This document shows, piece after piece, positions 292 to 48,948 of a stretch of 64,000 nucleotides of DNA; position 1 is the first letter of the stretch; every line of letters begins with the position of its first letter. The DNA is from Pempheris klunzingeri. Lineage: Eukaryota; Chordata; Actinopteri; Acropomatiformes; Pempheridae. The stretch spans positions 198,501-262,500 of the forward strand of contig NC_092020.1 in assembly GCF_042242105.1 (NCBI RefSeq), given 5' to 3'. The notes under the pieces are model-generated. The model was not told the DNA's origin. It ran no database searches and worked only from the letters and a program-made list of their open reading frames with translations. The position numbers and the translations under genes were made by a program.

Positions 292-2541
292 ATAGCCAAC
301 TCTGATGGCACACGGCCGGTGGGCCAGCTTGGTAAAGCGCCCAGCTCTAGTGATATGTTGCTGAAACTGGCCCGGACCACACCATATTACAAGAGAAACC
401 GTCCGCACATCTGCTCCTTCTGGGTGAAGGGAGAATGTAAGAGAGGGGAGGAGTGTCCTTACAGGTGAGTGACCCTTCATAAAAACAGGCTACATTTCTT
501 TTACGATTCATACACGGTCCTGTGTGTGTGTGTGTGTGTTCTGCTGCTGATTGTTCCCTGTATTGATTTATTCTTTTCTTTTGTATGAATGTTGTCCTTT
601 TGAGTTCTTATCACAAAAGGCAAAATAGAAATGTGTGTGTTCTTATGGTTCAATCTGACTGTAATTTCCTTATCTTTGTTACTTCAGTATTTTCTCATTC
701 TGGCTTCTTTTCACACAGGCACGAGAAGCCCACAGATCCAGATGACCCTCTAGCCGACCAGAACATTAAGGACCGTTACTATGGCATCAATGACCCAGTA
801 GCTGACAAGCTGCTGAAACGGGCCTCAACCATGCCCCGACTGGACCCACCAGAGGACAAGTCCATCAGCACCCTCTATATAGGGGGCTTGGGAGATACTG
901 TCACAGATGGAGATCTCAAGTAAGGATTTATATTTCCAAATGGCCCGTGTTCAACTTCCTGTGGCTATTAAGAGGGTGTTTTATTCGTTTTGTAAATGTG
1001 GTAGACTGTCATTTAATTGTCAAAGCGAGCATTTACAAATTTAAACCTTTAGTTTCAGTGTTTTGAGTCTAACGGACATTTATCTTTTATTGCAGGAGTC
1101 ACTTTTACCAGTTTGGTGAGATTCGCACCATTACCATAGTCCAGAGGCAGCAGTGTGCCTTTATCCAGTTTGCTACAAGGCAGTCAGCTGAAATGGCAGC
1201 TGAGAAGTCCTTCAACAAACTCATCATTAATGGACGGAGACTCACTGTCAAATGGGGAAGGTAAGAAGCTGGTCAAGAAGGTAAAAGTTAGACATTGCGG
1301 TGGACATCACCAGTCTGACACCCCCCCCCCCCCCCCCCCGGGCAGAATTCATGCACTGTGTGGATGCAGCCCAAAACAGCTCCTCATTCCCTCTGATCAA
1401 AGTTCTCAGCTCACCATACAGCGCCACTAAGTGGAGCCTCTATTTGGAGGTGTGAAGATTTATAGTGATAATTTGCCTATTAAATGCTGTGTTCAGACAC
1501 CATGCGTGTTTGAAGAATAACGGCCTGTCAGCAAGTCACAAGTGAAATTAAGCTACTGACTGCAGTGCTTTTAAAATATTACAGAAAGAGCTTTACCTCT
1601 GCAAAAATAAATTGCAGAGCATGATACAATTTTGCTGCTGCACATCATTCAGTGGTATCTATAATTTTGTATGGTTTATTCTTTTAGGTCTCAGGCAGCA
1701 AGAGGGAAGGACGGCATTAAAGATGGTGTCAGTGAGATGGGCACCAGACTTGATCCTGTACCTGGACTGCCTGGAGGTGAGTCTGCAAACACAGGGAGAG
1801 TTGGAATTTGTGTGTGTACACGTGGTAACATAGTCATAAGTGTAATTTTTAAAGTTGTATTTAATGTCTAAATTGTGACATTAATTGTTGATTCTTTTTC
1901 ATATATATGTTAAAACATTAATGGGATTGATTGATGATGAAATTAAAATCTGAATTATTGCTGAAATTTGTTTGTTTTGTCATATTGTTTCTTTAATTCT
2001 ATTTCTCTTTGTGCTATAGCTCTTCCTCCACCCCCGGCTTTAGATGAAGAGACTCCTGCAAACTACTTCAACCTGGACCATGGCACATCTCCTGCTGTCA
2101 TGAACATCGCTCTTCCCCCACCGCCGGGCATCAACCCGCCTCCTCCAGGTACAATCATAACCATGATGTCATAGATGCAGCTTTTATCACATGTGTAGTA
2201 AATATGTCAATATAAAATAATCCCATAAACTTTGGAAATCCTGATCTGTTGTTATAGGTTTACTCATGCTAAGCTGCTGAGAATAATTTATTCATCATGT
2301 AGCACTGTGTAAATGATTTAAACAGCGAGAAAAGGTAGATGCCTAATACTGTCTTTTTTTTTTTTCTTCCTTATACGCTCAATCAGGTTTTGGCCCTCCA
2401 ATGTTTCACCCCATGGGTCCTATGGCTCCACCTATGCCCCCTCCAATGAGCATGAGACCTCCTGGTCAAATCCACTACCCCTCCCAGGATCCCCAGCGCA
2501 TGGGTGCCCATGCTGCACATGGCTCGCGTCACGGTGATTAG
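292..2541 (+). CDS. rbm22: Pre-mRNA-splicing factor RBM22, 3' part (6 exons visible)
   Basis: RBM22 is a spliceosome protein that contacts the U6 snRNA internal stem-loop and the intron in the activated spliceosome, in the nucleus. Exons read by eye: 292-464, 719-919, 1096-1260, 1688-1776, 2020-2148 and 2387-2541, with TAG at 2539-2541. The first visible exon encodes a CCCH zinc finger (C-X7-C-X5-C-X3-H, in the stretch from HICSFW to CPYRH). The next two encode an RRM with RNP2-like LYIGGL and RNP1-like QCAFIQF. The tail is Pro/Gly/Met-rich and ends [14 protein letters not shown]. All donors and acceptors are GT-AG. The N-terminal exons lie left of the window, so the start is not seen. The visible part follows my recollection of human RBM22 almost residue for residue. 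Paralogues are unlikely. Confidence 0.97.
1321..1339. repeat. Poly(C) tract in rbm22 intron
   Basis: Nineteen consecutive C lie just after the RRM exon. Such tracts bind poly(C)-binding proteins and are also error-prone in sequencing. Confidence 0.9.
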
Positions 2542-3578: not shown

Positions 3579-6500
3579 TCATAGTTCATTAGACTCAGGG
3601 CAGTAATCAATTCCCCATCCCCTAGGTGCTCTGTTGAAGTTCGGCCGTCGAAACATGCGCTTCTGAGCGATGCTTGGCAGACTCTGGGACTCCACTGCCT
3701 CAAAGCCAATCACTGGGATCACCCTCTTGCTGGCCATAGTGCCTCCAAATGGCGTGGCAGATCTGAGGGACAAAGAAAAGAGTCCTTACTAAAGCAGCTT
3801 GAATGCATTGTGTTTCATGTTCCTGGCAGAACATGACCTGAGATATCATATGGCTCAGACTACTTTAGATGACATAGAATACTCAGTCTGGTCATCTCTC
3901 TGATTTTAACTGGTCCTGTTAACAGGAAAACCACCCGGGGGTTAATGATAACTCAAACTGGGCGTGGAGCTGCTCTGCCCAGTAGTTAAGATGAAATTTA
4001 ATCATGGCTTCACAATTTCATAGTAATCTCCACAGGGGATATACTTCCAGACTGGTTTACAGAAACCAACTGACTGGCAGTTTTAATTGAGTTAAGTCTG
4101 AGTTTGTCTTTCATATGCTCTCCATTTCTTCATCTTTCCAAGCTTAACCTTTGCACAGCCTCGCTGGTGTGATGCAATTCTTTGTGTGCATTGAGAAAGG
4201 TGATTCCCATTCGTGCGTAATCTGTCTTGTGGAGGCATTAAAAGCTTGCAGCCCCCCAGTGGATCATCTTTCAAGAGCCAGGGTTCAAAATAGCCATCAC
4301 GCAGCCATACTCGAAGGAGGTGCAAGCCAGAGACTGGATTAATTTTCAAACTGGAAACATGGAGTGAAGCCGAGAAGAGATGATTGTGATGGATGACGTT
4401 AGATCATCTGTGGGTCTATTTGAAGATGGTTGGGTCTCCACGCTTGTGCTTCCAACTGAATGGGATTTTTTTTTTTAGGTTATGATATATTTACGTGAAC
4501 TAAGGAGTGACTAAAAAGGTAGATTTACCTGTTGAAGCACCTGTAGTTGGCAGGCTCTTGACTCAAGGGAAACTGGGGCAGCTTGGCGCTCAGGGAGTTC
4601 AGGAGCTCTTCATTGCTCCCCAGAGCTTCTGTCCATGGAGAACAGTAGGATTTTGGGATTACTGTTGTGTTGAACTTCTCACGAGGAATTTCTTTCAGAG
4701 GGCCAGAATATCCTGAAAGAATCAGAAGTCTGTCAGTGGGTAAAAATAAGATACCACTATGATTAAAGTGACAGCTTTGTCACTTTAATTTGCAGTAATT
4801 GTATCTTTTCAAACAAAAAAAATAAAGGTCCCCTGTGTTGTGAAAAAATATATCTTGGCTTTTCAAACTAATTACAAAGCCCACTAAAAAGCCTCAACAA
4901 GACACAAGCACCTAATATACATATGAATTTCTTTGATGTCAATCCTGTCAACAATAGAAACTACAGCAATTAGATCTCAGTGTGAATCCCTGCTAATAGA
5001 CAGAGCCTCACTGTCCGGTTGGAAGCAGCGCTTTTTGTCAGGCCAAATACACAACAGCAAAGATTGTCGCAGATAAATGCTTTCTGAAAACTGCCAACTC
5101 TCCTGGCACTTGAAATAAAACTACTTAGTTCAGTACATTTCTACAAGACTCGCAGATCAAAGTGTCCATGCATTGCACAAGCATTTGGCATCGTGGCGAG
5201 CAAATCCTACGGCATGTGGCAGTCAGCAGCAATCCTCTCTTCACCGTGTATTGCAGTACCATTTACCTGGAGCGAGGACTTCAGGAGTGCCCTTCTTTGC
5301 TACAGTCTTCTGAAGGTTCATGACCAGGCTATGCTTACCAGGGATGGAGAAAGCCTGGTTCTCTTTTCCTCCCTGTGGCTCTTGGATGATCTGTGGAGAA
5401 GGAACAACCAGTGGATGGACCTGCGAAAGGAACAGTGTTGGATTTCTCAAATTAGTATTTTAAGATTCAAAGACTTATTTGTCTTGTACTCATGCAGTGA
5501 CATGGATGGATGTCCCAAAAATAATAATCAGAATAACAGTAAAAATAGATACAAAGGTTAGGATAGGAATATAAAGGTCGTTATTTGTTAAAGATACTCC
5601 TGTCTGATCATTATTATTATTGTTATTGTTCACTCATTTGTCAAGGTGAAAACACCCCATTCTGTACATGCAAGTCCTGTGGAAGGATGGGAAATTCCTG
5701 CTGCTATACTCCAAAGAAATCACAGCAGACGCTGAGAAAGGTCAAAGGAGTCTGACGTGACTGGCCATTAATTATAGCTGTTTGATCAATTTTGCACACT
5801 AAGCATTAACTAAATGTCAGCAAGACAGGTAGATAATTTGGGGTGTGTTGGTTGTAAGCTCAGTGGATAGAAGTCATCGTGTGCTATGCCCCTTCTCACA
5901 GCTCCTTACATTGTTGGTGTCATGAGCACCATTGGCAGTGCTCTCCAGTGTGAACCTCTCAGCCCTCTTCTGTCTCTCCTGAAACATGCGAGAGCCACGA
6001 TTAGATGAAAGGTTGAGCTCCTCCATCATCACGTCCTTTGGAACGCTGATCTTCTTTCCCAGGTTCAGACCCTCTGGCACAACATGACAGACGAATTCAT
6101 GCGCTTTAGTAAGTGATTACATTTAATGCCTGTATGCATTTTGAAAATGGCAGCAGCAGAGTAGAGACATCTGATTGCTGCAGGTTTTCATCAGGAGACT
6201 AGGTGACTCTAACTCTGCATAATGCATCATGACATTTAGTTGTTAGTACAAAGGCAATAACAACAGCAACTTCCAGACATTTGGAAAGAGAAGGAAAGTA
6301 ACAGACTAATCAGGACCTTTGGCAAATCTTAATGTCTCCTCTGATCTTCTTGTTTCTGTCAACATTAAACAGCTGAGGGGAACTGATTAAAAAAAAGCCA
6401 AACCGTGTGCAGCATCACTAAGTTGGTATGAGCACAGCTTTTTCTCTCAGGGTCTCTTCTCCTCTTATATCATGGCACAGTGGAGGGTCTGAAATAGCCT

Positions 6501-7243
6501 TGAGATGATGTCAAGGGGTGCGTAATGTTTGTTGTGGTCCAGGGTTGCATGGGTAACTGGGCATATAAATAGGATCTTTGGATGAAAGAGTCATGTAAGA
6601 GCGGATGGCCCTTTTTCTCAGACAGGAAAAGCGTCGGGAGAAGTCCAGGCATGTGCCACCCTTGAGGACCTGCCTTTGATCGGCCTGTGTGAAATTCAGT
6701 GGTGGGAGTCACATTTTGCTGAGTTTATGGGACTTGTTTTCAAAGTGTAGCTGGCAGACAGCGCTGGAAAGCAAACAGTGCAACTGGGATGGTCCCTGCT
6801 GGAATGTTTGGAGAATTTCAAGAACACGCTGGCACTCCTGGGATTTGGGTGTACTGCACTGCATGTGGGCTAACACTGTTTGATGTTTGGCTCAATTACA
6901 TCTGACAGCCCCGGCTGTGATCGCTCAGTATGACAGCTTAAATATGGGTGTAAATACACACAACAAAATACCAAGTTGTTGATGCATTGTGTTTATTCAG
7001 TCATTTCGGTATCAATCTACATAGTCATGTAATCTAATGTCTCTCTTAGTTTACTAATCAGTCTTTACTTCCAGATAGTATGTATGTGCATGCCAGTTCT
7101 GTCTTAAAATGTAATGACATGGACATGACAACATCAGATCATCCAAACTTACCTCCCCTGGCCTCCTTAGACAGAGCCCTCGCCTGCAACATCCTCTGCT
7201 TCGTCAAGTCATCCAGGCCTGGCTGCATCATCATCATCATCAT
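3579..7243 (-). CDS. myoz3: Myozenin-3 (calsarcin-3/FATZ-3), Z-disc protein
   Basis: Myozenins are Z-disc adaptors of striated muscle that bind alpha-actinin, filamin C, telethonin and calcineurin. Five coding exons on the minus strand, in order of translation: 7243-7153, 6073-5910, 5420-5267, 4712-4529 and 3762-3579. They give 258 aa; human MYOZ3 is about 251. Conserved blocks include LGKKISVPKDVMMEELNL, then NRGSRMFQERQKRAERFT, then APGYSGPLKEIPREKFN, and the end FNRAPRGWG with C-terminal PESNEL. These match MYOZ3 better than MYOZ1 or MYOZ2. The gene sits tail-to-tail with rbm22, its neighbour in mammals. The start is a run of six ATG codons (7226-7243); which one is used cannot be decided. 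A 5' UTR exon with its donor at about 7709 is possible. Confidence 0.95.
6074..7152 (-). other. myoz3 intron 1
   Basis: A 1.08-kb intron separates the Met-run exon from the VMMEELNL exon. It contains only AT-rich unique sequence. No repeat family or additional exon was recognised. Confidence 0.6.
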
Positions 7244-8027
7244 CTTCTTCCGCCTCTAATTCACAAACATGTGAATTACTGTGAGGATTTCTCTAAATTG
7301 TAGTTTGTCGACGATACAATATTTTGATATATAATTTGCTAATGAAAATCTCTTTTGTAGGTGTCCTGTACATTCTAAACTTACCGTAGATATACCAGAA
7401 GTATAAATATATGTTTTATCAATAGCTCTTTTATGGTGTTGAAGCTGATATTGCTGAAGTTGCTGAAATAAAATACTTCTTTACTTTACTTCATGTGAAC
7501 TGTCTTTTTTGCAACAGTTCCATGTACAACTGTGTCTCATTGCAGCAAAACCACAGCGCACCATTACATTTTAAAGTTGCCTCTCCAGCATCCTACAACT
7601 GCTGACAGTTCATTAAAGGACCTGGCAGCTTCCACACCTCAGTCAGACTGTAAACTGTGCTTTCTGTCACCTTATGAAAGGCCTACACTGCCCTCACCTC
7701 AGCCCTTACCTGCGTCTCCGTACGTCGGGTGTTGGAGCTGGTCAGGATGGTCGAGTGGTTTACCCTGCACTGGAGCTGGGATACTTCAACGCTGCACTCT
7801 GACACTCCTCGGCAGAGAAGGAACAGTCTGTATAAAACTCATCCCAGGATGCCTCGGGCGCTTACCTCACTGGGTTATTTTAGCAGAGGAATAAGAGAGT
7901 GAGGATGGATGGAGGAAGTATTTGTACGGGGTGCAGGGGGTATAAAAGGGCAATTAAGGAGGAGGGGCAAGTATAAAGATTTACATCCCGACCTCGAGCC
8001 TGTTTGATAATAAAAAACATGATCCCT

Positions 8028-8070
<43 letters not shown>

Positions 8071-9522
8071 TGGCAGCTGCCGTCCAGATACTGACACTGA
8101 TCTCTCAGAGAGGCCAAGCATCCAACCTCTCCACTGCAAACATAGACACACACAAACACAACTTCTATCTTCTCTCTTTCATTTCTACCCTCTGTAAAAA
8201 CTAGTTGGCCATTTATACTTGGTTGCTCACAAACACACCCACCGTGTGTTTCCCCCCCACACACAGTTTTACAGGAGAAGCTGTAAAATTGATGAGGTCA
8301 CTGCGATCAGAGGTGGTGATTCGGTTTTCCAGTTTGGGGTCAAAGGTTAAACTCTGGCAGTTTACTCTTCCATTTTTGATGGTGTGAGACCCCTGATGTT
8401 CTTTTCCCTCACACCGCTGTGAAGCACTGGCATTCTCCTTACCTCAGTACTGAAAAAGATTGCAACAAATGGCACTTCATTGTTTTTCGTTTTGTGTTTT
8501 CATTTATCCGCTGGCTTACCAACCGCTGAGAATCTCCAGTTGTGAGTTCTGCATAAACTCGTAGTTTGTATTACAGCAGAAGTGATGCCCTTTAACTTTA
8601 TATTTGGTTGCCCTTTTTGAACTCAAGTTAGTTTTTTCCCCCCACAAATTGATTCATTGAGCTCAGCAGGAGCCTGGAGTGAAAAAAAACATTTTCCTTA
8701 TCCCTGTTGAGATTGGATATCGATTTTGCACCTGCCCTGCTCCACAATAACACTATCCCCCAGTGGGAAGCCTCCCGGCCACTGAAAGAAAATGTGGAGT
8801 CATCCTGAGTCACAGAAAATTATCTGCAGACACACAATGGAAGTTGAAGAGTTTCTTCACATTATGGGTTTATTTGTTTGGTAGAAAAACGTACTGTGCT
8901 CCAAAAACTGGAAAAAAAAAGAAACCAGAGTAGGTTATGAGCCTCCTTTTAACAAATATAAAGTAATGTTTTGTGTGGTGCTGTATCACACAGAGCCTTA
9001 AGGCTTAGAGACAATATGCCAAGTTTATTCAAACCTATTGCTTAATTGATTACAAATTATATTAGTTATTGCGACAAATGTCAATTGATAATTCAATGGT
9101 TTAAAAAGTAATTATCTACGTAACAAGATTATGAAAACAGGACATATTCTTATGACTAATGCCATCTGTGTTTGAAAGGTGGCTTCCGCAGTGTGTTCAT
9201 GTCACATAGTGAGAGGTGCACAGCCACCAGGCGCTGACAGCTGACACAAGAACAATAGAGGCCCATTCAGACTTAAGGGCTTGCACGATTAGGGTACCTT
9301 TAAAACCGTTAGGCCTGTTGGCTTTCAGATGAAACCTTATTTGGCTGGCTAGTCTGAGAAAGTTCACAACGCCACAGGTAGTGTTGAGAGCAAGAGAGAA
9401 CCAAAGCAGCAATACTCAGAATACGGCTTTTTATAGCTTCATGCTGAAAGCTAAATGCATTAAGATTCAGATTGCAGCACTAAAAAAAGTCATCGTTCTG
9501 AACTTTTCTTATTTGCTTGCAG
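7244..9522. other. Divergent intergenic region between myoz3 and gucy1b2
   Basis: This holds the upstream regions of both genes, which are transcribed away from each other. A possible myoz3 5' UTR exon lies on the minus strand with its donor at about 7709 (exon from 7710 upward). A forward TATAAAAG at about 7941 has the wrong orientation for myoz3 and no clear gene downstream. A (GT)n tract fills 8031-8069. A possible gucy1b2 leader exon begins after the acceptor ending at 9522. No additional coding gene is supported. Confidence 0.5.
8031..8069. repeat. (GT)n microsatellite
   Basis: About 19 uninterrupted GT units lie in the myoz3-gucy1b2 intergenic region. They create spurious open frames rich in Val/Cys or Thr/His on the two strands. 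Confidence 0.95.
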
Positions 9523-9608
9523 GTGCCTTTGGGAGGACTGTTGGAAGTCAATCAGTTGGGGAGCTGTCTTGACAGTGCTCAGTTTGAGCTCCAATCCAGA
9601 GAGGCATA

Positions 9609-12600
9609 ATGTATGGGCTGCTGTGTGAGAGTCTTCATGACTTCATCAAGGAGTCGTACGGAGATGATGTGTGGAAGCTGGTCAGAGAAAGAGCAGATGT
9701 CAGACTGCACTCCTTTGTCACCCACCAGGTATGGTGTCTGTCTCTCTGAAATGAATGATACAATACTGAATGAATGCACTGAATAATAATGTCTGTCTGT
9801 ATCCAAGTCAACCTGTCTGCAGTTTCTGCCACTGCTCTCTGCTTCTGTCTGAAGCTCCGTAGTTCTGATGTCTAAACATATACTTTTCTCACTAATGATA
9901 GGTTCTATATATGTGTGCCTGCAGGTGTATAGTGAGAGCGTGATTCCCCGCATAGCAAAGGCTGCCAGCGGAGTGACGGGCACGCCCTACAATGAGCTGA
10001 TGAACTCCTGGGGTGTCTACTTCCTGGGCTTTGTTGGGAAGTACGGCTATGACAGGATCCTCAAGGTGAAAAAAGATCTCAGACTCAGAGCTCAGCTGCC
10101 TTTTGGTAGGCTGACATTTCTAAACAAAATCTCTCAATCTAGACAAAAGATTTTATTGTGACTTTTATTGTACTTTTTCATCTTTAGGTGTATCTTACAA
10201 TTGAATATGTTAGAAAATGAGGTCATGCCACATAAATGTACAACCTTCTAAAATAAGGTGCTATCAGTGGATTACATGCACTCATACATTCCAGTTTGGT
10301 GCATTATTAACCCAGATTTTGGTCATAGTTTCTGTCCAGATCTTATTATCAAGCATTATCTGTTTTTATCTGAATATTTCTAGCGGGCCATGTTTTGAAG
10401 AGTTAAAAATTAGCATAATGCACTGAGTTCTCCAAAAGTTTAGTAATTTAATTTTCAGTCAAAGTAGGAGCAAAATATTTTAAAGGGCTTCTACAGTAAT
10501 TTTGGATTGCATATTCATGAGTTTGTGGAATTCACAAAAGATGGATTATAAAAAGAATCAAATCACAGTAGCAAAGACCGAGATATCTTGATTTGTAGTC
10601 GCTTGTATGGTTTAAGCTCCAAAAATACTGTCCTTATTTTTAAAAAAATGGTTTGTCCTGAAGCACAAGCCAAAATAACTCTGATGAAATCATCATAGTT
10701 CACCCCATGATGAGTAAACTGACCTTTTTGTGTAAAATTAGTGAACTGCCCCTTTTAAAATACTACAATTGAAAGGTGGAGCAACTATCTTAGACATGAT
10801 CTGTCACCCTGTGTCTGCCTTCAGGTGCTGGGCCGTCATGTACGTGATTTTGTCAACGGGCTCGATAATCTCCACGAGTACCTGCGCTTCAGCTACCCCA
10901 AGGTGCAGCCTCCAACCTTCTTCTGCCAGGAGGAGTCTGCCACTGGAGTGACCCTCCACTACAGGTCTGAGGCGATGGGGGGAGGGAGAGATGGATAGAC
11001 TATCAGGCATCAGACATGAAAGTAGGAAAAACAGGGCATACAGAGAGAAAGCTGTGCGATTAATTTCTTTCAACTGATATAGAATTTTCTTCTTCCGTGA
11101 CCTGCAGGAGTAAGCGCAAAGGCTATCTGCACTACGCCATGGGTCAGCTGCGGCAGATGGGGAAACAGTTCTATGACACAGACATCCATGTAGAGGTGTT
11201 GTCTGAGCAGATGGTCGGAGACTACTCCCATGTCACCATGAGGTAGGTACACAAACACACACACACACACACACACACACAATGGTAGAAAGTAAGTGCT
11301 TTAGATCGAGTACAGCAGAAGAGTACAAATTGTACTTTTCTTAATGTTATGCTGTGTCACGCTTCTACTCCATTACATTTAAGAGGGAAATGTTTGAATG
11401 TTTACTCCACTAGCAGCTACTGCTAGTGATTATTCCTCAGGTTGAGATTTTACATAAAAATCATATGAAAGGAAAGGTTCTTCTTTCCCTCCCTATCAAT
11501 CACCTCATGATGCCTCAGGTTTATCTTGTGGCCCTTTGGTGGGGGCCCGACCCTTAGGTGGTGAACCACTGGACTAAACCATGTAACTGTGTACACACAA
11601 GTAGCTAACCACAACATTAAAATGCTACTGATGCATCAATACTATGAATCTACTCAATCTAATCTTACGTTTGATAACTTAAGTACAATTTCCTGTCAAT
11701 AATTTTGTACTTTGACTTTAAGTAAAAATTTGAATGTAGGAGTTTTACAGAGTAATTTAACTGTGTTTCATTGGTACTTTCATTTAAGTAAAGGATCTGA
11801 TTACCACTTGTATCTAACTTTAAACTGATCTGTGCAGGCTGAACTTTGACAACTCAGCCTACCGCTACATCATGAAGGAGGATGAGGAGGAGCAGGACAT
11901 TTTGCCCATTACCTCAGACTTCTTCTTTGAGGTCTTTCCCTTTAACATCGTCTTCAGACAGGTATTCCCTCTCAGTTACATTGCTAAAGTCACCAAGGGC
12001 AGCTCAAGAGTGAAATGAAGCTTTATATGAATTAACACTCGTTACAATTCTTTGATTCTTTAGGACATGGTGGTGCACAATGTTGGCTCGGGCCTGGCCA
12101 CAGTCTTCCCTGATCTTGATGGGAAGAAGATCAATGATGCCTTCTTGCTGGCTCGCCCCCTAGTGGAGTTCACCTGGAACATGGTAAGACGTCACTTCAA
12201 GTGTCCCAATTTCAGACAGACGGTGTTAATATTTCCAGCCAATCCAGGTCAAACTTCCCAGCTCTAAATAGAATGCTGATGAGTACCAAGAATGCTGATT
12301 TAATAATCTGTACACAGATCATCTCCCACCCCAACAACCTTTTTGAGATCATGTCTAAGGAGCCTGTGAAGAGAGAGAGGAACCTTCACAACCGAGTCCA
12401 GAGTAAGAGTGGGGGTCTGGCTTGTGGTCAGATCTGTTTCACTACAGTTAGTTGCAAAAGAAACTCTCATTTCATTTTTATTGACTTAAAAGATAGAGCA
12501 GTGTCTGCTGTAAAATAAAATAAAATAAAAGCTCAAACATCAACATTAAAACTTGAAAACATTGCCTAATTAAAGTTGAGAGTTTAGGGCTGTTTAGTGT

Positions 12601-15600
12601 TGCAGCTGCTGAAATGGAATCTTTTGATGCCCTGATACAACTTAAATCGATTGAGTTTTAAGGAATTGATCCCAGCCCTGGATGCTATGGGTGGGTGGGT
12701 GTGAATATGAATGTTTATGGCTCTGATAGTTGACCCTGTTTTTCCACAGATTCAGACTATGAAAATGCCAATCGCTCTGCTGACGTAGATGTGGAGCTCA
12801 TGGCTTTCCAGTCCATCATTGGAGATGATTACAAAGGTCACCTGTTATATAAAAAGACACAAAGCAAGACCTGAATATACAGACACAGAACTGACATTTG
12901 GGGAAATAAAGTTATTTGCCTCCTTGTTGAGAGCTGAGAACACTCTCACGGACCACTCCCACAGGTCAGCAGTTTGCTTAGCTTAGCTTAGCTTATTAAA
13001 ATAGAGAGACAGGGGGAAAGATCTGGGCTTGCTCTGTCTAAAGATGACAACAATCTGCCTGATAGCACCTCCTGTTGTATGTCGTCTGTTAAATATGTAC
13101 AAAAACCAAAGTCACCATAGATAATTCCTGATTCTATGCGAGCTGAAAGCCATTAACTGTTGATAGTTTGAACTAGATCAACTATTTTCCCCTGTTTTCA
13201 GGCTTTATGCTAAGCCACGCTAATTAGCTGCCGTCTCCAGCTTCACACTAAACGTACTGATATGAGAGTAGTATTGATCTTCTCATCTAAGTGTCAGCAA
13301 GAAAGCAAATCATTTCACAAAATGTCAAACCATTCCTTAAAAAATGCCCTGAGCTGTTAGGCCAGCCATTAGGCTGGCATTTTTGACACAGTACAGTTAT
13401 TATCTTCTGCTTAAATTTACCCTAAAACACCTCTTTAAATGTTTGTCTTGTTGGCATTTCATCGTGCTCTCTTTTAGATGGTAATAGTGCTAATGCAATG
13501 GAGAGCTGGGGCGATGGGAGCCGCTGCCTAAGACTCAAAGGACAAATGAGATACATGCCAGAGTGGGAGTCCATCATCTTCTTGGGAACCCCTGTGTAAG
13601 GCACAAACACGCATTAATTCACACACACACACACACACACACACCCATAGACACAGATCTTTATTAAAACGCTGCAGTTGAAAAGTAAAACATTCTGAAA
13701 AGCAGCAAGAGCCAAACTGAATTACGAGGCTGGAAATAAAAGCCTGGGCAGTGAATCAAATCAGGGGCCCATTCTAGCAGCACTTACCATGCATGAAATG
13801 AGCTGCTAATTAGCTTGTAATCAGACAGTGCAGCTCTTGTGAGCCTAATGGGAATCCATTTGCAACTGAGAGTGTTTTCCTCTGAGTACATTACCAAAAC
13901 ATATCCCTCCTCTTCTAAAAGATTTTGTTTTGCATTTACAAATGCTCTTATGCCTGTATTGACAAAACTCCTGAAATGTTAAATGCCATATTACACTGCT
14001 TATATTATGTACACTGTGGGAAACTTAAAATTACATATTGCTGTGTTTTAATTCTCCATTTTTACAGATACTGCTTTTGTTATTTCTTAATCCGTTCTGT
14101 AGTTGTTTTAGTACATATTCCTGACATTCTCGTTGTCTATGTGTGTGTGTGTGTGTGTGTGTGTCTAGGATGGAGAGTCTGAGTGCTATGTTTAAGACTG
14201 GCCTGTACATCAATGACCTGAGCATGCATGACTCCAGCAGAGACCTGGTGCTGGCAGGCACGCAGCAGTCAGAGGAGCTGAAGAGAGCTCTCATACAGGT
14301 TTACCCTGCCGAAATACGGCAGCATTTTATATGTGTGATCAGTTCACTTGTCACTCTTCATTATGCAGAGTTACTGTGAAGCTCTTCTTTCAGTCTGGCG
14401 GCCACAGATCACCTACCGCCCGCAGACCTGAGATGAAAGAAGCAGCTACAGACTCACTGTGTTATTCTGTCTTATTTGCCGTTGTGAGTACAGGAGCAGA
14501 AGAAGTCCAGTAAGCTTGAGGAGAGCATGAAGATGTTGGACTATGAGATGAAGAAGACTGATGACCTCCTGTACAGGATGATTCCCAAGCCGGTGGCTAA
14601 AAGGCTGCGCAAAGGAGAGCCGGCTGTAAACACTTGTGAGGTCAGGACTGTGGATGGTTATCTATTGATCTATTATACACCTCAAGTGCTAAAAACAACT
14701 GATGCTGCTCTTAAAAATAACAGTTTAACATTGTGGGAAATGTGGCCATTCACTTTGTCACAGATGAGATGACTGGCACCACTCTCATGGGTAAATATGA
14801 AGCTACAAGAGCCGATTAGCTCAGAAACAGTGGGAAACAACTAGCCTGGCTCCATCCAAAGATAATAAAATATACTCACTAGCACTTCTGCAGTCCACTA
14901 ATTACATACAAGATATCAGCTAAATAGTTTTTGCTACCTTCGGACAGAGCCAGGCGAGCTGTAGTTTCATATTCATCGTAAATAAGAGACATATACAGAC
15001 ATATCAGACTTCCCATCTAACTCTCTATAACTCACATTCATCTACTGAAGCACAAAAAAGACATTGGCTCATTTGTTTGATTAAAGATTTTGGTGCAAAC
15101 TGAGGTTTTTTTCTTGCCCAGTGTAAAAAGTGACTGGTTCACACACATGTACGCACACACACTCATAAATTCTACTTGTGTAGTTTTACTGTTGGAGACT
15201 TTTTGCTACGGTAAAATTCAGCTTGATTGACAGCGGCTTCCTGGTGACGCATAAAAGCATAGGCACAAAAATGGCCCATGAATGCTCGCCTCCCACTCCT
15301 TTGTGTGGGTGTGTACAGTTGAACAACCCTCCTGCTCATCAACTCTCTTATCTCTTTTCCCCCAGGTGTTCCCAGATGTGACCATTCTCTTCAGTGATGT
15401 AGTGGGATTTACTCGCATTTGCAGCCACATCACGCCAATGCAGGTGGTCTCCATGCTCAACACAATGTACACGCTGTTTGACACGCTCAGTGAGAAGCAC
15501 CGCGTCTTCAAGGTTCGTGTGTGTTTTTTTCCCACTGTTTAATATACATTATCTGGAAGTGCTGCTGCGCGAGAGCTGCTGTTCCTGTTATCTCCCAGGT

Positions 15601-17460
15601 AGAGACTATCGGAGATGCTTACATGGTGGTCGCCGGGGCTCCAGAGAAGACAAAGTATCATGCTCATAACATCTGTGACATGGCCCTGGACATGGTGCGC
15701 TCCATAGATCACCTGAAAGACCCCTCTAATGGCAACAACATACAGATTCGTGTTGGTGGGTAAAATATGTCTGGGCCTATTTGTGTGTTACTGTTGCTGC
15801 TTGACTCAGTAAACTAACCTGTCGTTTTGGATGCAGGGATCCACTCTGGGATGGTCGTGGCAGGTGTGGTCGGACATAAGATGCCACGTTATGGTCTGCA
15901 TGGTGACACAGTCCATACTGCATCTGCCATGGAGAGCAATGGAAAGGTACGGAAGGGTAATGAGTGAAGGAAAGATGTCAGCTGATATGAGAGAGAGAAG
16001 TAAGGCTGCAAGGCTAAGCCAGTATACAGAATATAATGACTACAATGATATTTTCTGTGTTTTTGCTATAACTGCATTATTATTCTTTATCCTATTCAGG
16101 AGATGCACATTCAGCTCAGCAGTGCCACCTACGAACACCTGAAAGGAAGTCATTTTATTTTTGAAAGAAGGGGGACCATTACCATCAAGGTTAGGGGTCA
16201 AAACCATAGCAACTGCACTCACCACATTAACTTTATTCACCGAGGCACAACATGTAATTTATATGATCTGCTGTAGAACGTCTGAATAACACACAGCGAT
16301 GACTTGGCTGTGTTCATAACTGTGTCTACACATACATACATACAAAATACATACATGTTATCTGCACATTATACACAGCCTACCTGAATGCAAACATTGA
16401 GGCTGTAATCTGCGTTAATGAAAGATATGTATATCGGCGATGAGACATAATAAGCGTTTCTGAATCTAAAAATAATAAATATAATGATAATAAAATAATA
16501 ACAATAACCCATAATGGCTCTGGGGGGTCAGCACACGGTATGCAAAACTTGTGATTACAGGTTGCTTGTTGATTTGGCTGTACCTTTAGTGATAATGGCA
16601 GCAGAGTGACTCCCAAAGGTGTCTGAGGCAGCTGATTACAGGTGCCAATCTCAAGAAAGCAAGAGTGACTCATTTGTCATCAGGGAACTCAGACTGTTGA
16701 AAATCTGCCCTCCAAACAGAAATTGTTGTTTTCTTCTCTCCATTCATTTCTAGGGGAATGTTGAAATCGAGACCTACTGGCTAAAAGGAAAGAGGGACAA
16801 AGATGGGAACGCTCAGGCAGCGTGTCCTCAGTTTGAGACCCAGACCATCAGCAAGGCCATCAGCAAGGCCACCCTCTCAGGCCCCGAGGCCACAGGAGAT
16901 GAGGAGGGACTGGTAAAAATTTCACAAAGACATGCTTGAATGGTAAACGCTCTCATTTGCTTCATTGCTACCATCATCATCTCTGATTCCTCGAGTCTCC
17001 CGCTGTGTTTGCCCCAAGGTTTTCCCACTGGTGGCAGGGGAGGATGAGGATGACGTCAAGTCTATTCGCTCTCATCGCATCAAGATGGAAATTTCAGGCC
17101 ATTCTCTGGAGGAGTCGATGGAGGAGTGCCGGGTGGAGGAGATGTCCGTTCATAAGGTGAGAATGAGTAGAATAGATTCAGAGTTATTTATGTTTCTTGT
17201 CATCTATAACCGTCATTAGGATTTCCTTCCTGGGTTCTTATTAGCTGTTAATGCTGTTTTTACACTTGCTATTATCAGTGTTATAAAATGAGCTGTTCCT
17301 TCCCCATTCCCACTATAAGGATGCTTTGCAGGACGGCCTCCAGGACTCCCACTTGGAACTGGATTCGCCCGAGTCTGACGGCAGAGACTCCATCATGGAG
17401 TCCTGTGGCAGCTCCTGTGACTCCCGCTGCTCCAAGAGCGCCATGTGCTCCGTGTCATGA
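9609..17460 (+). CDS. gucy1b2: Soluble guanylyl cyclase subunit beta-2
   Basis: GUCY1B2 is the heme-containing second beta subunit of soluble guanylyl cyclase (GTP to cGMP). Eighteen exons give 762 aa: 9609-9728, 9925-10065, 10825-10964, 11108-11242, 11838-11961, 12064-12183, 12318-12402, 12750-12836, 13478-13595, 14169-14298, 14494-14640, 15366-15512, 15599-15755, 15837-15946, 16100-16189, 16754-16912, 17019-17156, 17320-17460. Residues 1-180 form the H-NOX domain with proximal heme His104 and Tyr133-Ser135-Arg137 (YxSxR). A PAS-like/coiled-coil region follows, then a cyclase domain from about residue 450. Metal ligands Asp460 and Asp504 are present, as is Glu500. Gly570, His577 and Ala581 replace the usual Cys, Asn and Arg. 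The tail beyond about residue 640 is acidic, then Ser/Cys-rich, ending CSVS, a possible CaaX box. Rat beta-2 is about 682 aa and also ends in an isoprenylation motif. The ATG at 9609 is chosen because MYG begins beta subunits. Confidence 0.93.
11255..11281. repeat. (AC)n microsatellite near gucy1b2 exon 4 donor
   Basis: The tract starts 12 bases into intron 4 of gucy1b2. Unlike intron 9, the 3' end of this intron has no matching GT tract. Confidence 0.9.
12889..13345. mobile_element. Palindromic MITE copy A, in gucy1b2 intron 8
   Basis: The left end (TGACATTTGGGGAAATAAAG region) and the right end (ending ...CACAAAATGTCAAACCATTCC at about 13341) are degenerate inverted repeats of at least 50 bp. 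The interior has the GCTTAGCTTAGCTTAG block and an internal stretch similar to copies B (26632-27185) and C (14724-15035). The GATCTTCTCATCTAA block near the right end is shared with copy B. This matches my recollection of a very common perciform MITE-like repeat with no coding capacity. Confidence 0.7.
13621..13644. repeat. (AC)12 tract at the 5' end of gucy1b2 intron 9
   Basis: Twelve AC units begin 25 bases after the exon 9 donor at 13596. They are complementary to the (GT)12 that abuts the acceptor of the same intron (14141-14164). Confidence 0.95.
14141..14164. repeat. (GT)12 tract abutting the gucy1b2 exon 10 acceptor
   Basis: The GT run is followed directly by CTAG and then exon 10 at 14169, so the usual polypyrimidine tract is missing. 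UG repeats are known TDP-43/CELF binding sites, and this one could also pair with the AC tract at 13621-13644. Confidence 0.95.
14724..15035. mobile_element. Palindromic MITE copy C, in gucy1b2 intron 11
   Basis: The left end reads TTTAACATTGTGGGAAATG, then GACTGGCACCACTCTCATGG and the GGGAAACAACTAGCCTGGCT block. The right half carries the reverse complement of parts of these (GACAGAGCCAGGCGAGCTGT, then a TTCATATTCATCGTAAAT block and a CCCATCTAACTCTC end). The element is therefore a long degenerate palindrome of the same family as copies A and B. Confidence 0.65.
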
Positions 17461-18704
17461 GCTAATGTTGCTGTAGCCAGTAATTCATTTCTCTTACTGT
17501 TTCTAAAGTGCTTTTTGTACGACTCAGTTAAAGCACTGAATGCTAGACCAAATGCCAGATAGGAATGCAATTTAATTTGTTACTTTTTCCTTTTTGGAGG
17601 AGCTCTTGTAGTGATGCCATGACAACCTCTAATGATGTGTTGTGTGTACATAGTGTAGTCTGTAATGCTTGAAATGCCTAATGGCTTTGTGTGGTGTTAT
17701 ATTGCACAGCAAAATCATCAGTGCATATTTAGTTCTGACAATACAGACATCAGCTGTAGCAATCATTAATGTTGCACTTTGATCAGTTTAAACAGCTGCC
17801 TCAGAGCTTTAGCAGCTCTACGAGTGAGCAGAAACTTAATTAGTCCAATTAACACCTCAAAGCAATTGCAAACTTTGCTGCGTGCCCATTTGTGCAACAG
17901 CAGGTTAGTACCAAATAGTGTTCACTGCCACACGGTTCGGCTGGACACAAGCTCAGTAATTTCCTGCACTGTTTGTTCTGTTGCACCTTGCACATTTGAC
18001 ATTTGTTTTTTTTCATCCTGTGAAGAAATCGGAATCTCTCATCCATCCCCCTTCCTCCTCTATCCTTCGTCATATTTCCTTCATCTTGCATGTCTGAATA
18101 CATTGTTCTAGATCAGTCTTGTCAAATACACAGCCACGGCACAATGTAAAGGCTTGTCAGCTCAGTGAAAATAAAGCAATATGACTGCTGAGCTGCGCGT
18201 GGATCCGCTTCTTATTGTTTGTCCTGTCACTCAAAGGCATTCAGACTCACATGACATTTGCATATATTTTGCACTTTTTTATTGAACACAGTTGCCCATG
18301 GCTATAGTTGTATTTTTATTGTGTCTATGTGTGCTCATGTGACATTCATGCATGTGTACCTGCATTTTCTTACCTTAACTCCAGTGAATTCCAGGAAACC
18401 TAGTTCCTTTTATATTGTGGTATTTTAGCTTCCAAACGCAACATAACTGTACTTTTTGTGATTGTCTAGTGTCCAAAAATACTGCTCCTGTTCAATCAAA
18501 CACAGGAACAAATCAAATCAATTTAGGAGTTTAACGATTGTCTCAAATTTCATGCTTTGGTTTAATGCTTAAGGTGAAATTATCAATCTGCTTTACAGTG
18601 CTATGACAAATCCATACAAGCCACTAAAACAACAATAGTGTAATCCTGACACAAAAAACATCAATAGACAGTCAAAAACGAGTTATCCTGGTATGGAATC
18701 CGAG
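17461..18704. other. gucy1b2 3' UTR and convergent 3' UTR of the minus-strand membrane-protein gene
   Basis: An AATAAA for gucy1b2 lies at 18170-18175. A minus-strand AATAAA (forward TTTATT at 18278-18283) fits the end of the gene whose stop codon is at 18705. The two transcripts would end within about 120 bp of each other. No other gene is seen. Confidence 0.6.
18170..18175 (+). terminator. Polyadenylation signal AATAAA, gucy1b2
   Basis: This is the first canonical AATAAA downstream of the gucy1b2 stop codon, about 710 bp into the 3' UTR. It is followed by T/G-rich sequence at 18205-18225. Confidence 0.6.
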
Positions 18705-19463
18705 TCAGACAACGTTCCCCACTGACTGGTTATCAGAGGAGCTGCACTTAAAAGTGGCGTCCTCTCTGTCTATGCTGCATCTGTTGGTGGTGTGCGAGTC
18801 TGTAGGCGATGACCCGATGGAGCAATGGAAGCAGAAGGCGTAGAAGAAAGCAAGCAGCAGCAGGAAGCAGACAACACAAAAAATGATGACAATCAGGATA
18901 GTGTGCACTTGCATGTGTGCCTCCTCCCATGGGAGTATCGTGGTGGTGGTCAGAAGGCTGAAGGTCGATCGTGTAGCATTGAGACTGGGTAGAAGGGTCA
19001 CTGTGGGTAACTGCGGCTTCATGGAGGCCAGGTGGGCGACTTCCGGCATGATGCGAGGATGTGTGCCCTCAGTGGCTTGGAGATACTTGCTGTTGCAGCT
19101 TTAATGAGACAGACATCTTTTAGTTTGGTATACCACATGCACAGATAAACACCATCCATAAGACATCGTAGTCATTTTATTTTCAAATGTATTTGAAGTA
19201 AATTTTGTCTAATGATAAATCAACAAAGCATAAAAATATTAATTAGTTTGGTTTTCACATTCTCAACACAGTGCATTTCTGTGCAAAATCTAACAGTGCT
19301 AGAAAAAGTATTCATTTTAACAACATCACTTCATTTTTAAAAGCAGAGGGTTAATTATCTTCCTCACAGACAGCCAAATGCAGACGTGCCTTTTGTTCTT
19401 ACCTGGTTGCAGTGTTGTCCAGGCTCTCTGAGCAGGACTCAGCCTGTCCTTTGATGAGGAGAT
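18705..19463 (-). CDS. Unrecognised single-pass membrane protein, 5' end not found
   Basis: I do not recognise this gene. Two exons are visible on the minus strand: 19463-19403 and 19098-18705 (stop TAA at 18705). The ectodomain has two Cys (SCSES, SCNSKY), an N-glycosylation site (NAT) and a Ser/Thr-rich stretch. A strongly hydrophobic membrane segment follows (TILIVIIFCVVCFLLLLAFF). The cytoplasmic tail of about 50 aa is rich in Ser, Cys and Asp and ends SVGNVV. The upstream exon enters in phase 1, as expected after a signal-peptide exon, but no signal exon was found in 19464-21178. A poly(A) signal follows at 18283-18278. Good splice sites, an open tail of sensible composition and a clear TM segment argue for a real gene. 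Homology was not tested. Confidence 0.65.
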
Positions 19464-21595: not shown

Positions 21596-24500
21596 TCACT
21601 TCTTCTTATTAACAATGTTGTTGCAAATCCAGTTCATGCCATCCTGTTAGGGGAATGAAAATAAAGGGAGCACTTTTATATGGATAGTCATGGTCCACGT
21701 GGAGAGAAATTGATAAATCAAAGTTAGGACTAAATCTGACCTGAACTCCCTCCCCAGACACAGCCGAGCAGGCCTGAATCTGCCACTCACGGTCACGGTA
21801 CGTGTGCAGGTTGAGTCCCTCAGCGATCTCACTGGCCGGTGACGCTGTGGCCAGATCCTGCTTATTGGCAAAGATGAGCACTGGAACACCCTTTAGGTTC
21901 TCCTCGTCGACCAGCTCAGACAGCTCCTGCACATGTGCACACATACAATTTTTGTTACTAACTTTTAAAAAAAACAGAACGGGCTCTTTTATGCATGTTA
22001 ATATGATTAACTGTTCAGTATGTGCATGCTGAAATGATAACAAGTGTGCATCAGGCTCACCAGTCCCGTCTCCTCAAACCGCTTCTTGTCTGCACTGTCA
22101 ATAACATAAATCTGAAAGAACAAATGTGTAAGAATAAAAGTAAACACAGAAAATTCATGGGTGACAAGTTGTTTTTTGGCTTCAACATTTTGCTATCTCC
22201 ATGCAAACTCCTGAAAGTGTCAGTGACTCTTTTAGTGTGCAGCTGCTCCGGCACAGCAGCCAAACAATTAGCCTTAATTGAGAACACAAAATACAGTTGT
22301 CAACCTTTCAAAAATGTTCCACAACATTAGAGTTTTACTAACAACCTCCTTCATCAAGACACAAGTATACTGCTATATTTGTGCATTTATACTGTCCTCA
22401 GTATAACATTATGTATCAACTCTTTGTGATGTGACTAAATGGCAATTTATTATACTTTAATGCTATGGATTTTTAAAGATGCACATGTTTTTGTGGTGTA
22501 TTCTCAGTGATGCCCTGTGAGGACCACAGGATGACTAGCAACCACTTTGTAGAAGCTAATGGGGACCCTAATAGCGAACAAAGCAAATGTCTCTGGAAAT
22601 GATTTGAATTAAGATTAGTCACTCACCAACAGGTCTGTGTTTTCCAGGTACTTTTTCCAGAATGGCCTAATCTTCCTCTGTCCTCCAATGTCCCAAACAT
22701 TGAGTTTCATGCCATGAGAGGCAACACTCTTTATGTTGAAGCCCTGGAGTGAAACACAAAGCTGCAGTCACCGTACTGCACATCCCTGTCTTTAATCTAA
22801 CACAGCTCCAGTTCGCAGCACCTGGACAGCCTTGCAAATGGTTACGAAGCAATTCAATAAGCTGCAGTTTATGAGAGCACGGGTGTGTGTATTAAATATT
22901 GAATGAATCAATGTTTGGTGACTGTATTGTAATTGTAGCAGGAGTGCAACTTGTGCTTTCAGTATTTATGTGGCAGCCGCTTTTCATAACGCAGCTCCTT
23001 TCTCGGCAAGGTTGTATAACAACTTTATCCTGAGGGCCAGCAGAGGAGCAAATCTGAGGATAAGACTGGAAGGATCAAGTGCAGTGTATGTGTTTATGTG
23101 TCAAGTCTGATTTAGCTTTGCAGTGACTATTGCTGTGGCATACTGTATTGTATCCTCAGCCTGGTGTCTGATGAGCCACTGCACTCGTCCAGGACATGGC
23201 AGTACATCTGCTCTATGTCTTGTTTTGTGAGAGAAATGCCAGAGTATTAGATAATCATATCACAGGCTAGATAATCACATTAAAAGAGTTAGATAAAAAA
23301 AAAAAAGAGCTCACTGCAGCGTAAGGATCTTCTCAGAAACTGTGCTGAGCATGCAAATCAGAAGGGTCACATACGGCCACAGTTTAACCTCCTGCTGAAG
23401 GTTATTTACCATGAAATACAACAGGATGATCCGCCATCCTTGAATCATTATTTTACTGATTAGTGGTTAAAGCATGTGTACTGTAAGACCAATCATTTAA
23501 TTTCCCAGAGCGTCAGAAAGCAAAGGTCATCTGAATCCCATTACCATGAGCGAGAGCGTGCACTGGTCCAGCTGGTCTCACAAGATTAGAAACAATCCTC
23601 CTGCTCCTTATAAAGCTGGGTTACAGCGCCATGAAAATACACAATATCTTCATTCACACAAGAGGAAGTCATCATTGTAAAGTGGCACCTGTTTTTGCAA
23701 GAGGACTCAGTGACAGAAGACAAATTGCGTTGATCTTCAAAGAGCGATAACTTGTTGGTTAACAAGAAATTGATGGTATATTTCTGACAGATGTGTCCTG
23801 TTTATGTAGGATACAGAAACATCATCTGCAAGCATAACTGTCAGTGTTGTGGCATTTCTTTTTTATTATGCTGTACAGTCAGTGACGTCCCTTTAGGTCA
23901 TGATGTGTGTGTGTGTATTTTAACATACAGCGTCCTCTCACCTGTGTTGGTGTGATGGTGTTCACATCCTCAGAGGCGAGGCTCTTCAGCAGAGTGGTCT
24001 TGCCGGCGTTGTCCAACCCCAGAAGCACTATCCTGACCTCCTGCTCTGTGGATCCCTTCAGTTTCTCAATGACAGAGAGTAAGCCCTGCATTTAAGGGGG
24101 AGGGAGGGGTATGGTGTGGGGTGTGGGAGATTAGAGCACACCATAAACTTGCAAGAAACTAAAGCCAGACCATATTTGTAAAATATACTTGTCATCTCTA
24201 GAAGTCAACCTGTATCATGACAGGCAATTTGTCATTGGGTATTTCGATTTTGTAATGTTTTGGCTTAGAAAACAAAAGCATATGAAGGGCTCAGCTATCT
24301 ATTACATTATATTCCAGGAAAACCAGATCTTTACTCTGAGGAAAGATATTTCCTTTCCTCTGGGTTTTTTTTTTTTTTTTTAATGTATTCCAAGATAACA
24401 TTCAGACTTAAATAAAAAGATAAACACAATTTTCAGACATACACTTGAATTCTAATGAAACTCCCACTGACCTCTTTCTGATTTGATGTGAGAGCACCCT

Positions 24501-26160: not shown

Positions 26161-28649
26161 CTATGAGTGTGTGAATGGAGATGGGACACCACTCTGTGCC
26201 GCCTGTGCCCTCTGCTGTTTCATCCTCTCTTTGAGTTTAGCTGCAGAGAGAGAGAGAGAGAGAGAGATAGCTGTATGGTAGTAAAGTATGGAGTCCACTC
26301 AGACATCAACAATGGACAAGCATCCAACAAAATGCACGTAGAGCAGAATGAGGCAGATCCCCACTGATCACTAACATTCAAAAGGGAGCACTTAAATTCT
26401 TTGATCACCTTAAATCCACCCCTGAGACACCCTCCATCCCAAAGCCCTCCAAAACCAAGGATGAGCCCAGAAAACAGTCCCCTATATCTGCTGGTGGTGA
26501 GAAAACGCCCCCCTCACACACACTGTGACCAGTGTCACAACAACACTGCTTTCCAAACTCCAATCAGAGCAAACCTAATTAGACCGCAGTGTAAGGACAC
26601 CTATTTGGAACAAGCTAAAAGCCACAGTGGACAAGTTGCTGTTAGATGAGAAGATCAATACCACTCCACTGTCTGTATGAGTTAGCAGCCATTAGCTTAG
26701 CTTAGCATACGGTGGGAAACAGCTAGACTGGTTCTGTCCAAAGGTAACAATTTTGACCTACCAGCACCTTTAAAACTATTTTATCAACATGTTAGTCTAA
26801 TCTGTTCAATAACCGACAATTAAACCCAAATATTGACTGTTTTGGGGGGAATGTGCGAGATTCTACCTGTTAACAGCTTCTGGCAAAGAAAGAAATAGCA
26901 CAAAGCCTCCTGAAATATGCAACTTTTCAGTTTTTATGTGTCTTAAATAAACCAGATACAACATCTTAATGACTGAACTTTAGGAGTTCTGGTGGGTGGA
27001 TTTTACTGGTTTTGTTTCCAGTCTATGTGCCAAACTAAGCTCAGCTAAGCTAAGCTGAGCTGAATAGCTGCTGACTGAAGACTTATTTTATATCTCATGG
27101 ATAGATGTAAGAGTGGTATTGATCTTCCCATGTAACTTTTTGGCAGACAGTCAAATAAGTGTATTATTAAAAATGTTGAACTACTTAAGCTTTGAGCATT
27201 TGAAATATACTATTTGTACAAATGTGCAGTTACATAGACCCACAGTACACCTATCATCATCGTTTGTATTCAAGGAGAGGAGAGGTGCTTTCATTTCTTT
27301 CAGTCTTTCATCTTTTAGGCCCCTGTGCTGTCTAGAACCACAGGTAACCTGAACTGAGCTCTTACCGTTGTCTCTTTTGAGCTTGAACTTCATGGCCAGC
27401 CCCATAACCACAATCAGGGCCAAAGCGGAAACGCCACAGATCACCAGGATCACCACATTGTTGCCTGCTTGAGGTCACAGTTACAAATCAGAAAGATAGA
27501 CAGACAGCGAAGAGACATGCTATCCAGGATCAGATGTGCACTTTTCATTATTTAAATTTTGAATTCAGAAACTGTAAAATTCACTATTTCAAAACTTATG
27601 AGTTAAAATGCATCTACATTACAAAAGTAATCTGTGGCTGTGTGAAATAAGCAGGGAGAGGTCTACTTACCATTTACAGTGACATTGTGTGGCGGCGACT
27701 CATAAAGGCCACATGTGCTATTCACAAAGCAGCTGTACCGGTCTGAATTATGTGAAAGCGCTTTTTTGAAAACAAGCTGGCTTTTATTTTGGCCCTCATG
27801 TATTTCCACCCCATCCCTCTTCCACCCAAATGTCAGATCCAAAGGGGGAAGATTATAGTCACATGTTAGAGTGAAGGCCTCACCCTCCTCTACAGCAGAT
27901 CCAGTGCCGTTGACAGAAACCTGGAAGTCTGATGGGCAGAGTGGATATTTAAGGGGAGGGAAGCAGCAGGGGCAGTGTTAGGTAATCAGATAGTTGTCAC
28001 TTTCTGTGCTTCAGTGCACTGCCACAAATATTGTTACAGCTTACCTTTTTTGCAGTTTGATAGACTGTCTGGAGGTACTAGAGAGAAAAGTAAACACGGA
28101 AAGAAGTTGGCATTTCATTTACGGCAGAGCACACATGACACATCCCAGACATTTATAAGGTTGTATAAGGTTCTTCTGAGAATACATTTGCACCCACTGT
28201 AACTTGTTCTACTCAGTTAAACCCACATCCCACCGTTTGTCATGTACCATAATTAAAGACACAGGAGTTTTCTTCAAGGAAACAAATGAAAAGAACAATT
28301 ATACTTACCATTGACGCACTGCGCTGAACTGTTTGAGCAGAATGAACAAGAGACTAAAGAAAAAACAGAGATGGATGGGATAGCATTCAGAACATTTTTC
28401 CTGTGCATCTCACTGCGCAATTATACATTTTCAATTTATAACATTTTCAGATGCTTTAAATACAGAGAAAGGTTATGGTTGATTTCATGTTCTCTTTTTT
28501 CTCTTTTCTTTTTTACCTGCTGAAGTTTCTCCCCTAATGTCACATATCAGACATTGGACAGGAACACAGCCAGAGCCAACGCCAGCTAAGATGAAGAATA
28601 AAAGAAATATAATTAAAAAAATAAATAAATGAATGAAAATAAAAAAAAT

Positions 28650-48152: not shown

Positions 48153-48328
48153 GTGATGGTGTTGAGTGAAATCAGTCTTGACTCTGCTCTCATTCACATC
48201 AAATCTGAAAGCTGATGAAGTACCTGTTCAAGTTTCAAAAGAAATATTTTACTGAATATCTTGATATAATGACAGAAAAGAGTAATAGCTGCAAGAGTTA
48301 TAATTTGTATATATATATATATATATAT

Positions 48329-48858: not shown

Positions 48859-48915
48859 ATATATATATATATATATATAATACTAACTCCCATCTGCTAT
48901 GATGTTTGTGTGTTA

Positions 48916-48917
<2 letters not shown>

Positions 48918-48946
<29 letters not shown>
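48918..48946. repeat. (GT)n microsatellite
   Basis: About 14 GT units lie just downstream of the MITE. Confidence 0.9.

Positions 48947-48948
<2 letters not shown>

Follow-up and report, generated by a model that had tools for sequence, protein, structure and literature searches.

The window analysed here is a 64-kb stretch of DNA on contig C9 of the Pempheris klunzingeri genome (646 Mb, 439 contigs). It contains a gene for what looks like an atypical, Gyc-88E-type soluble guanylyl cyclase (sGC) subunit (Table 1). All 17 introns have GT..AG borders and the exons splice to a single open frame of 762 codons, bearing out the preliminary description, which had reported the frame to be intact over 18 exons. 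The exons were re-obtained by splice-aware alignment with the gene's own protein as query, a check of the program and not independent proof. The Pfam families HNOB, HNOBA and Guanylate_cyc were all matched far above cut-off. Exon 14 was read in the frame set by the spliced gene, which is not frame 1 of the isolated exon, and all residue calls for the gene come from a single assembly of one animal. Elsewhere in the window, domain searches identified an RRM protein at 567–2541 (+), similar to RBM22, and an Arf-like GTPase at 21612–24091 (-), similar to ARL3. An Ig-domain protein lies at 27184–27977 (-). At 60675–62648 (+) there is a Na/Pi cotransporter-like gene, presumably slc34, whose single-exon matches fall below the curated cut-offs.

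Table 1. Features of the sGC gene, with positions counted from the first nucleotide of the window.
Feature	Position	Strand	Remarks
Gyc-88E-type (atypical) soluble guanylyl cyclase subunit gene, putative	9609..17460	+	18 exons, 762 aa plus stop
Domains			H-NOX aa 2–164; HNOBA aa 202–438; cyclase aa 451–629
Heme ligand His104	10873..10875	+	His105 in human beta1; residue table
YxSxR heme propionate motif, Y133/S135/R137	10960..11117	+	split by intron 3; motif as given in the accessible part of PMC1435932
Tyr143, distal-pocket position	11133..11135	+	Ile145 in human beta1; residue table
Asp460, metal ligand	15396..15398	+	kept (Gly in beta1); residue table
Glu500, presumed guanine-recognition position	15602..15604	+	kept; residue table
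Asp504, metal ligand	15614..15616	+	kept; residue table
Arg549, triphosphate-positioning Arg of metal half	15749..15751	+	kept (Thr in beta1); offset from CYG12 Arg571
Exon 14	15837..15946	+	carries lost substrate-half residues; AG precedes, GT follows
Gly570 (GGT)	15893..15895	+	replaces the Cys presumed to contact guanine; residue table, invariant columns
His572 (CAT)	15899..15901	+	replaces Phe
His577 (CAT)	15914..15916	+	replaces ribose-orienting Asn
Ala581 (GCC)	15926..15928	+	replaces transition-state Arg
Lys617, triphosphate Lys	16187..16189	+	kept; followed by Gly618-Asn619 (Gly-Lys in 7 reference guanylyl cyclases)
C-terminal CSVS	17446..17457	+	predicted CaaX-type prenylation box

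Searches of the genome with the HNOB and HNOBA families located adjoining alpha1 and beta1 genes on contig C3, alpha2 on C4, a further C4 gene at 12.71 Mb, one gene each on C24 and C8, and the window gene on C9. The genes at C4:12709001-12719000 and C24:14086001-14112000 are both of the gucy1b2 type: their catalytic residues are complete, and the distal heme pocket has Ile. Models of these paralogues were built with a home-made splice-aware aligner, and those of the gucy1b2 genes are uncertain in their N-terminal exons. A cyclase and HNOBA match was also seen at C415:1896-2918, interrupted by several stops and showing unusual variants (CSDIVNFTS, FCIFGKTVSQAVKLE); it may represent a degenerate copy, a further sGC-like gene or a contig from a contaminant.

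The window gene itself had been named gucy1b2 in the preliminary description, an assignment that we rejected on three grounds: i) A tree forcing it together with the C4 and C24 gucy1b2 genes had a log-likelihood lower by 92.1 and was rejected (p-AU 4e-43). ii) Of the peptides of four published gucy1b2 primers (accessible part of PMC4480006), the zebrafish reverse (NQLKEG) and mouse reverse (FGEETW) peptides each matched at 6/6 residues in the C4 protein and 5/6 in the C24 protein, and at best 3/6 in the window protein; the zebrafish forward peptide (WMESLN) discriminated weakly (4/6, 5/6 and 4/6, respectively), and the mouse forward primer, which overlaps the start codon, does not separate the genes. 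iii) The window protein has Tyr143 in place of the distal-pocket Ile of gucy1b2. The two gucy1b2 proteins have the sGC domain order of the window protein but share only about 36% identity with it and retain a complete catalytic set, including the Cys, Asn and Arg discussed below. Introns common to the window gene in place and phase number 1 of 15 modelled for the C24 gene and 2 of 11 modelled for fish beta1, and identity to fish beta1 is 35.0% over 575 columns. Alpha1 and alpha2 form a clade of their own (support 100/100), to which the window gene does not belong. Rat beta2 carries a C-terminal CaaX, as the window protein appears to. Because the gene is not gucy1b2, the contrast drawn earlier with the ability of rat beta-2 to act alone falls away. 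Fish genes of the Gyc-88E type are thus open to confusion with gucy1b2.

A basal sGC clade, sensitive to oxygen and insensitive to NO, is known from insects and nematodes. Two marks set it apart: the distal heme pocket has Tyr instead of the Ile of beta1 and beta2, and the H-NOX domain strongly resembles that of cyanobacteria (PMC1435932, accessible part). The distal-pocket residue is Tyr in the window protein, Phe in the C8 protein, and Ile in both gucy1b2 and all three beta1 rows of our residue table. The H-NOX domains of the window and C8 proteins have cyanobacterial Alr2278 as their best PDB match, scoring 109 and 114.8 bits against it and 98.4 and 89.1 bits against animal beta1. Unlike the window protein, the C24 gucy1b2 is closer to beta1 (94.6 bits to Alr2278, 146.8 to beta1), as is fish beta1 (104.3 and 341.8), and beta1 is the best PDB match of both. 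Since the window protein has the distal Tyr143 and an H-NOX closest, among PDB sequences, to the cyanobacterial one, it appears to be of the oxygen-sensing atypical kind, and this fish gene seems to be related to the insect Gyc-88E-type cyclases. The H-NOX region of sGC alpha binds no heme, according to the accessible text of PMC2576301, whereas that of the window protein is of the heme-binding type.

The same order of H-NOX, HNOBA and cyclase domains is found in Drosophila Gyc-88E, Gyc-89Da and Gyc-89Db, Manduca beta-3 and C. elegans GCY-31 and GCY-33, and these cyclases share with the window protein the distal-pocket Tyr, the heme His and the YxSxR motif. In the best tree, rooted on GC-A, the window and C8 genes lie outside alpha, beta1 and beta2, the position also taken by the Gyc-88E group, with support of only 89/92; a tree uniting the pair with beta2 (gucy1b2) was not rejected (p-AU 0.102). 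A provisional Gyc-88E sequence, not taken from a database record and serving as a lead only, shares 54.7% identity with the window protein and joins the pair at 100/100. At the two NO-linked cysteines, which we take to be C78 and C122 in beta1 numbering, the window protein has Val77 at one and retains Cys121 at the other. Moth beta-3 is described as lacking both, and the atypical clade as described in the accessible part of PMC1435932 is one of insects and nematodes, whereas the window gene is from a fish.

In class III cyclases, one chain contributes two Asp and a triphosphate Arg to each active site, and the second chain contributes Asn, Arg and Lys (PMC2576301, accessible part). Residues at these positions were compared in a table of 13 rows, one of them the provisional Gyc-88E. 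The preliminary reading of exon 14, with G570, H577 and A581 at the Cys, Asn and Arg sites and with Asp460, Asp504 and Glu500 retained, held in the spliced frame and in the residue table. The window protein thus lacks the Cys, Asn and Arg of a homodimer-competent guanylyl cyclase but has what is expected of a metal-donating, alpha-like half. The references were seven guanylyl cyclases that carry all three of these residues (the C8 protein, the two gucy1b2 proteins, beta1 of fish, human and moth, and human GC-A), and 56 columns within residues 451–630 are invariant among them. The window protein differs at six (Y497F, C570G, F572H, N577H, R581A and K619N), so the earlier list, correct for the three substrate residues, was incomplete. 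All three substrate residues being among the 6 of 56 changed columns (hypergeometric P = 0.0007), the changes are not a random scatter. With slightly different reference sets, departures from invariant columns number 2/52 in C8, 1/57 in each gucy1b2 and 0/56 in fish beta1.

An alpha-like split had also been proposed. Metal Asp kept with Asn and Arg lost is indeed the pattern of alpha1 and alpha2, as of adenylyl cyclase C1, but the alpha1 and alpha2 of P. klunzingeri, with Thr for Asn and Lys for Arg, keep the Cys that is Gly570 in the window protein, and the window gene has no close relationship to either the alphas or adenylyl cyclase C1. Fish beta1 shows the reverse: its first metal position is Gly and its triphosphate Arg is replaced by Thr, but it has Cys, Asn and Arg. 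The latter three are also present in the provisional fly Gyc-88E sequence, from which the window copy differs in lacking them. Conversion to an adenylyl cyclase was considered and rejected, the Lys and Asp found at the two base positions of the AC5 rows being absent. The same absence speaks against a homodimer with altered chemistry, acting on another substrate or catalysing without Asn and Arg; retention of the metal ligands, Glu500 and Lys617 is in its favour, but alpha1, alpha2 and AC5 C1, the remaining table entries that have lost Asn and Arg, belong to kinds known to work with an unlike partner, and we regard this explanation as barely credible.

The C8 gene lies at about 3926–18831 of the stretch C8:25486501-25506500. 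It and the window gene are sisters in the tree (100/100), their proteins share 55.8% identity over 638 columns, and 9 of the 14 modelled C8 introns are found at identical place and phase in the window gene. The C8 protein keeps Cys, Asn, Arg, Lys, both metal Asp and the triphosphate Arg. One of its two departures from the invariant columns is Arg506 (CGT), immediately ahead of the second metal position, at a site that is Gly in all 12 remaining table rows. A separate, unjoined terminal exon ends in CSIL, a likely CaaX box. An origin of the pair by whole-genome duplication was sought by comparing the ORFs of the 64-kb window with those of 60 kb around the C8 gene, and the 32 matches obtained involve only the cyclase gene or one repeated element near 48304–48949 of the window. 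That stretch looks like a mobile element and is matched almost exactly on C8, at 95.7% over 92 residues of an open frame; the C8 copy lies some 8 kb upstream of where the C8 gene starts.

Comparison with C8 also bears on whether the residue changes are real. Codons 570, 572, 577 and 581 differ between the two genes by 1, 2, 2 and 3 bases, and such multi-base differences are not explained by a single sequencing error. With one assembly of one individual as the source, exon 14 might be suspected of being misassembled, of having undergone gene conversion or of carrying a private variant, but the changed codons are set in conserved surroundings with the frame unbroken, and K619N falls in exon 16; we therefore consider such an explanation highly improbable. 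The changes could be specific to the lineage or the individual.

Decay of the window gene toward a pseudogene, with the cyclase lost first, would account for the loss of three essential residues along with the changes at 497, 572 and 619. However, the gene retains its 762 open codons, its 17 of 17 GT..AG introns and its CaaX end, and the cyclase is the most conserved of the three domains relative to C8, with 71.1% amino acid identity and the lowest dN (dN 0.199, dS 1.38; H-NOX, 0.322 and 1.59; HNOBA, 0.425 and 2.31). These pairwise values pool the window and C8 branches, and at such high dS the estimates are uncertain. In relative-rate comparisons over aa 1–630, window and C8 did not differ with 4 of 5 outgroups, and the provisional Gyc-88E as outgroup gave an excess in C8 (49 vs. 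71, p 0.045; in HNOBA, 12 vs. 32, p 0.003). For the cyclase domain, a nominal excess in the window gene, as decay would predict, was obtained with 2 of 6 outgroups (the C4 gucy1b2, p 0.041; provisional Gyc-88E, p 0.034), and none with the other 4. The selective loss of the three substrate residues, the changes clustering where substrate is bound, together with the low pairwise dN/dS, argues against decay, as the preliminary description had supposed, and we judge it very unlikely.

As it lacks Asn, Arg and Cys but has the metal half, a homodimer of the window protein would have no complete active site and a heterodimer would have one; judging from these residues, the protein probably works only with another subunit. 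In a heterodimer with the C8 protein, the single complete site would be the one using the window protein's metals, since Arg506 of C8 sits beside its second metal Asp, an arrangement like that of NO-sensing sGC and adenylyl cyclase. The window protein would supply the metals and an oxygen-responsive heme, and C8 the base, ribose and transition-state contacts. As with the fly enzymes, cGMP would rise when oxygen is low, and the predicted C-terminal prenylation would hold the window protein at membranes. Pairing, oxygen binding and activity are what we infer for the window protein. Taken together, we give an even chance to the reading that the gene encodes a teleost Gyc-88E-type sGC with a one-sided cyclase, likely the metal and oxygen-heme half of an asymmetric heterodimer, whose partner would most simply be C8. 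The earlier suggestion of an alpha-like half of a heterodimer is supported in substance by the residue pattern, but it had missed the oxygen-sensor-type heme pocket and the C8 partner.

Rat beta2 reportedly dampens the activity of alpha1/beta1, and this, with the substrate half of the window protein lost and its H-NOX and HNOBA intact by Pfam, could be taken to favour a catalytically dead regulatory subunit, a dominant-negative or purely oxygen-sensing pseudo-cyclase that would join C8 or a canonical partner and reduce or gate its activity while adding no working site of its own. Retention of D460, D504, R549 and K617 would be needless for a purely regulatory role, and we think this explanation unlikely, if a serious one. 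Beta1, or beta2, would on paper complement the window protein as C8 does. Having Cys, Asn and Arg but an incomplete metal half, beta1 is a close complement, and the natural partner might be canonical beta1 (or a gucy1b2 protein) and not C8, which would make the window protein a third alpha subunit. The much lower identity of the window protein to fish beta1 than to C8 tells against this, and we hold it to be quite unlikely.

Precedents for pairing in the atypical class are mixed. The fly studies suggest heterodimers made of unequal subunits: fly Gyc88E, 89Da and 89Db are described as mostly inactive singly and enhanced by co-expression (PMC11568450, accessible part), and fly atypical cyclases as stimulated by the absence of oxygen (PMC2990333, accessible part). 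Moth beta-3 and fly Gyc-88E are described as forming active homodimers (PMC1435932, accessible part), so pairing is no rule for the class, and C8, with both Asp and with Cys, Asn and Arg, might be an active homodimer in no need of a partner.

Acute oxygen sensing in vertebrates is still debated, and gucy1b2 has a reported role in the low-oxygen responses of mouse olfactory neurons (PMC12755159, accessible part). A fish cyclase of the oxygen-sensor type, with a possible partner gene whose residues complement its own, offers a concrete candidate that can be tested. We tentatively suggest, at somewhat less than even chances, that teleosts kept an oxygen-sensing atypical cyclase, duplicated it and split the active site by complementary loss, the window copy keeping the metals and the oxygen-linked Tyr and the C8 copy the base, ribose and transition-state residues. 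This would give a second obligate asymmetric sGC heterodimer of vertebrates, independent of the NO-sensing alpha/beta one and a direct candidate for an acute oxygen sensor in fish neurons or gills. The division of sGC into alpha and beta, with metals on one chain and substrate residues on the other, may then have evolved twice. Among the matches listed in our literature search, as judged from titles and the starts of abstracts, we found no paper dealing with how atypical sGCs of fish pair or with their catalytic residues. Four further strong cyclase matches in the genome, on C17 and C3, are ordinary cyclase domains in unusually long open exons, and look like adenylyl cyclase 9-type genes.
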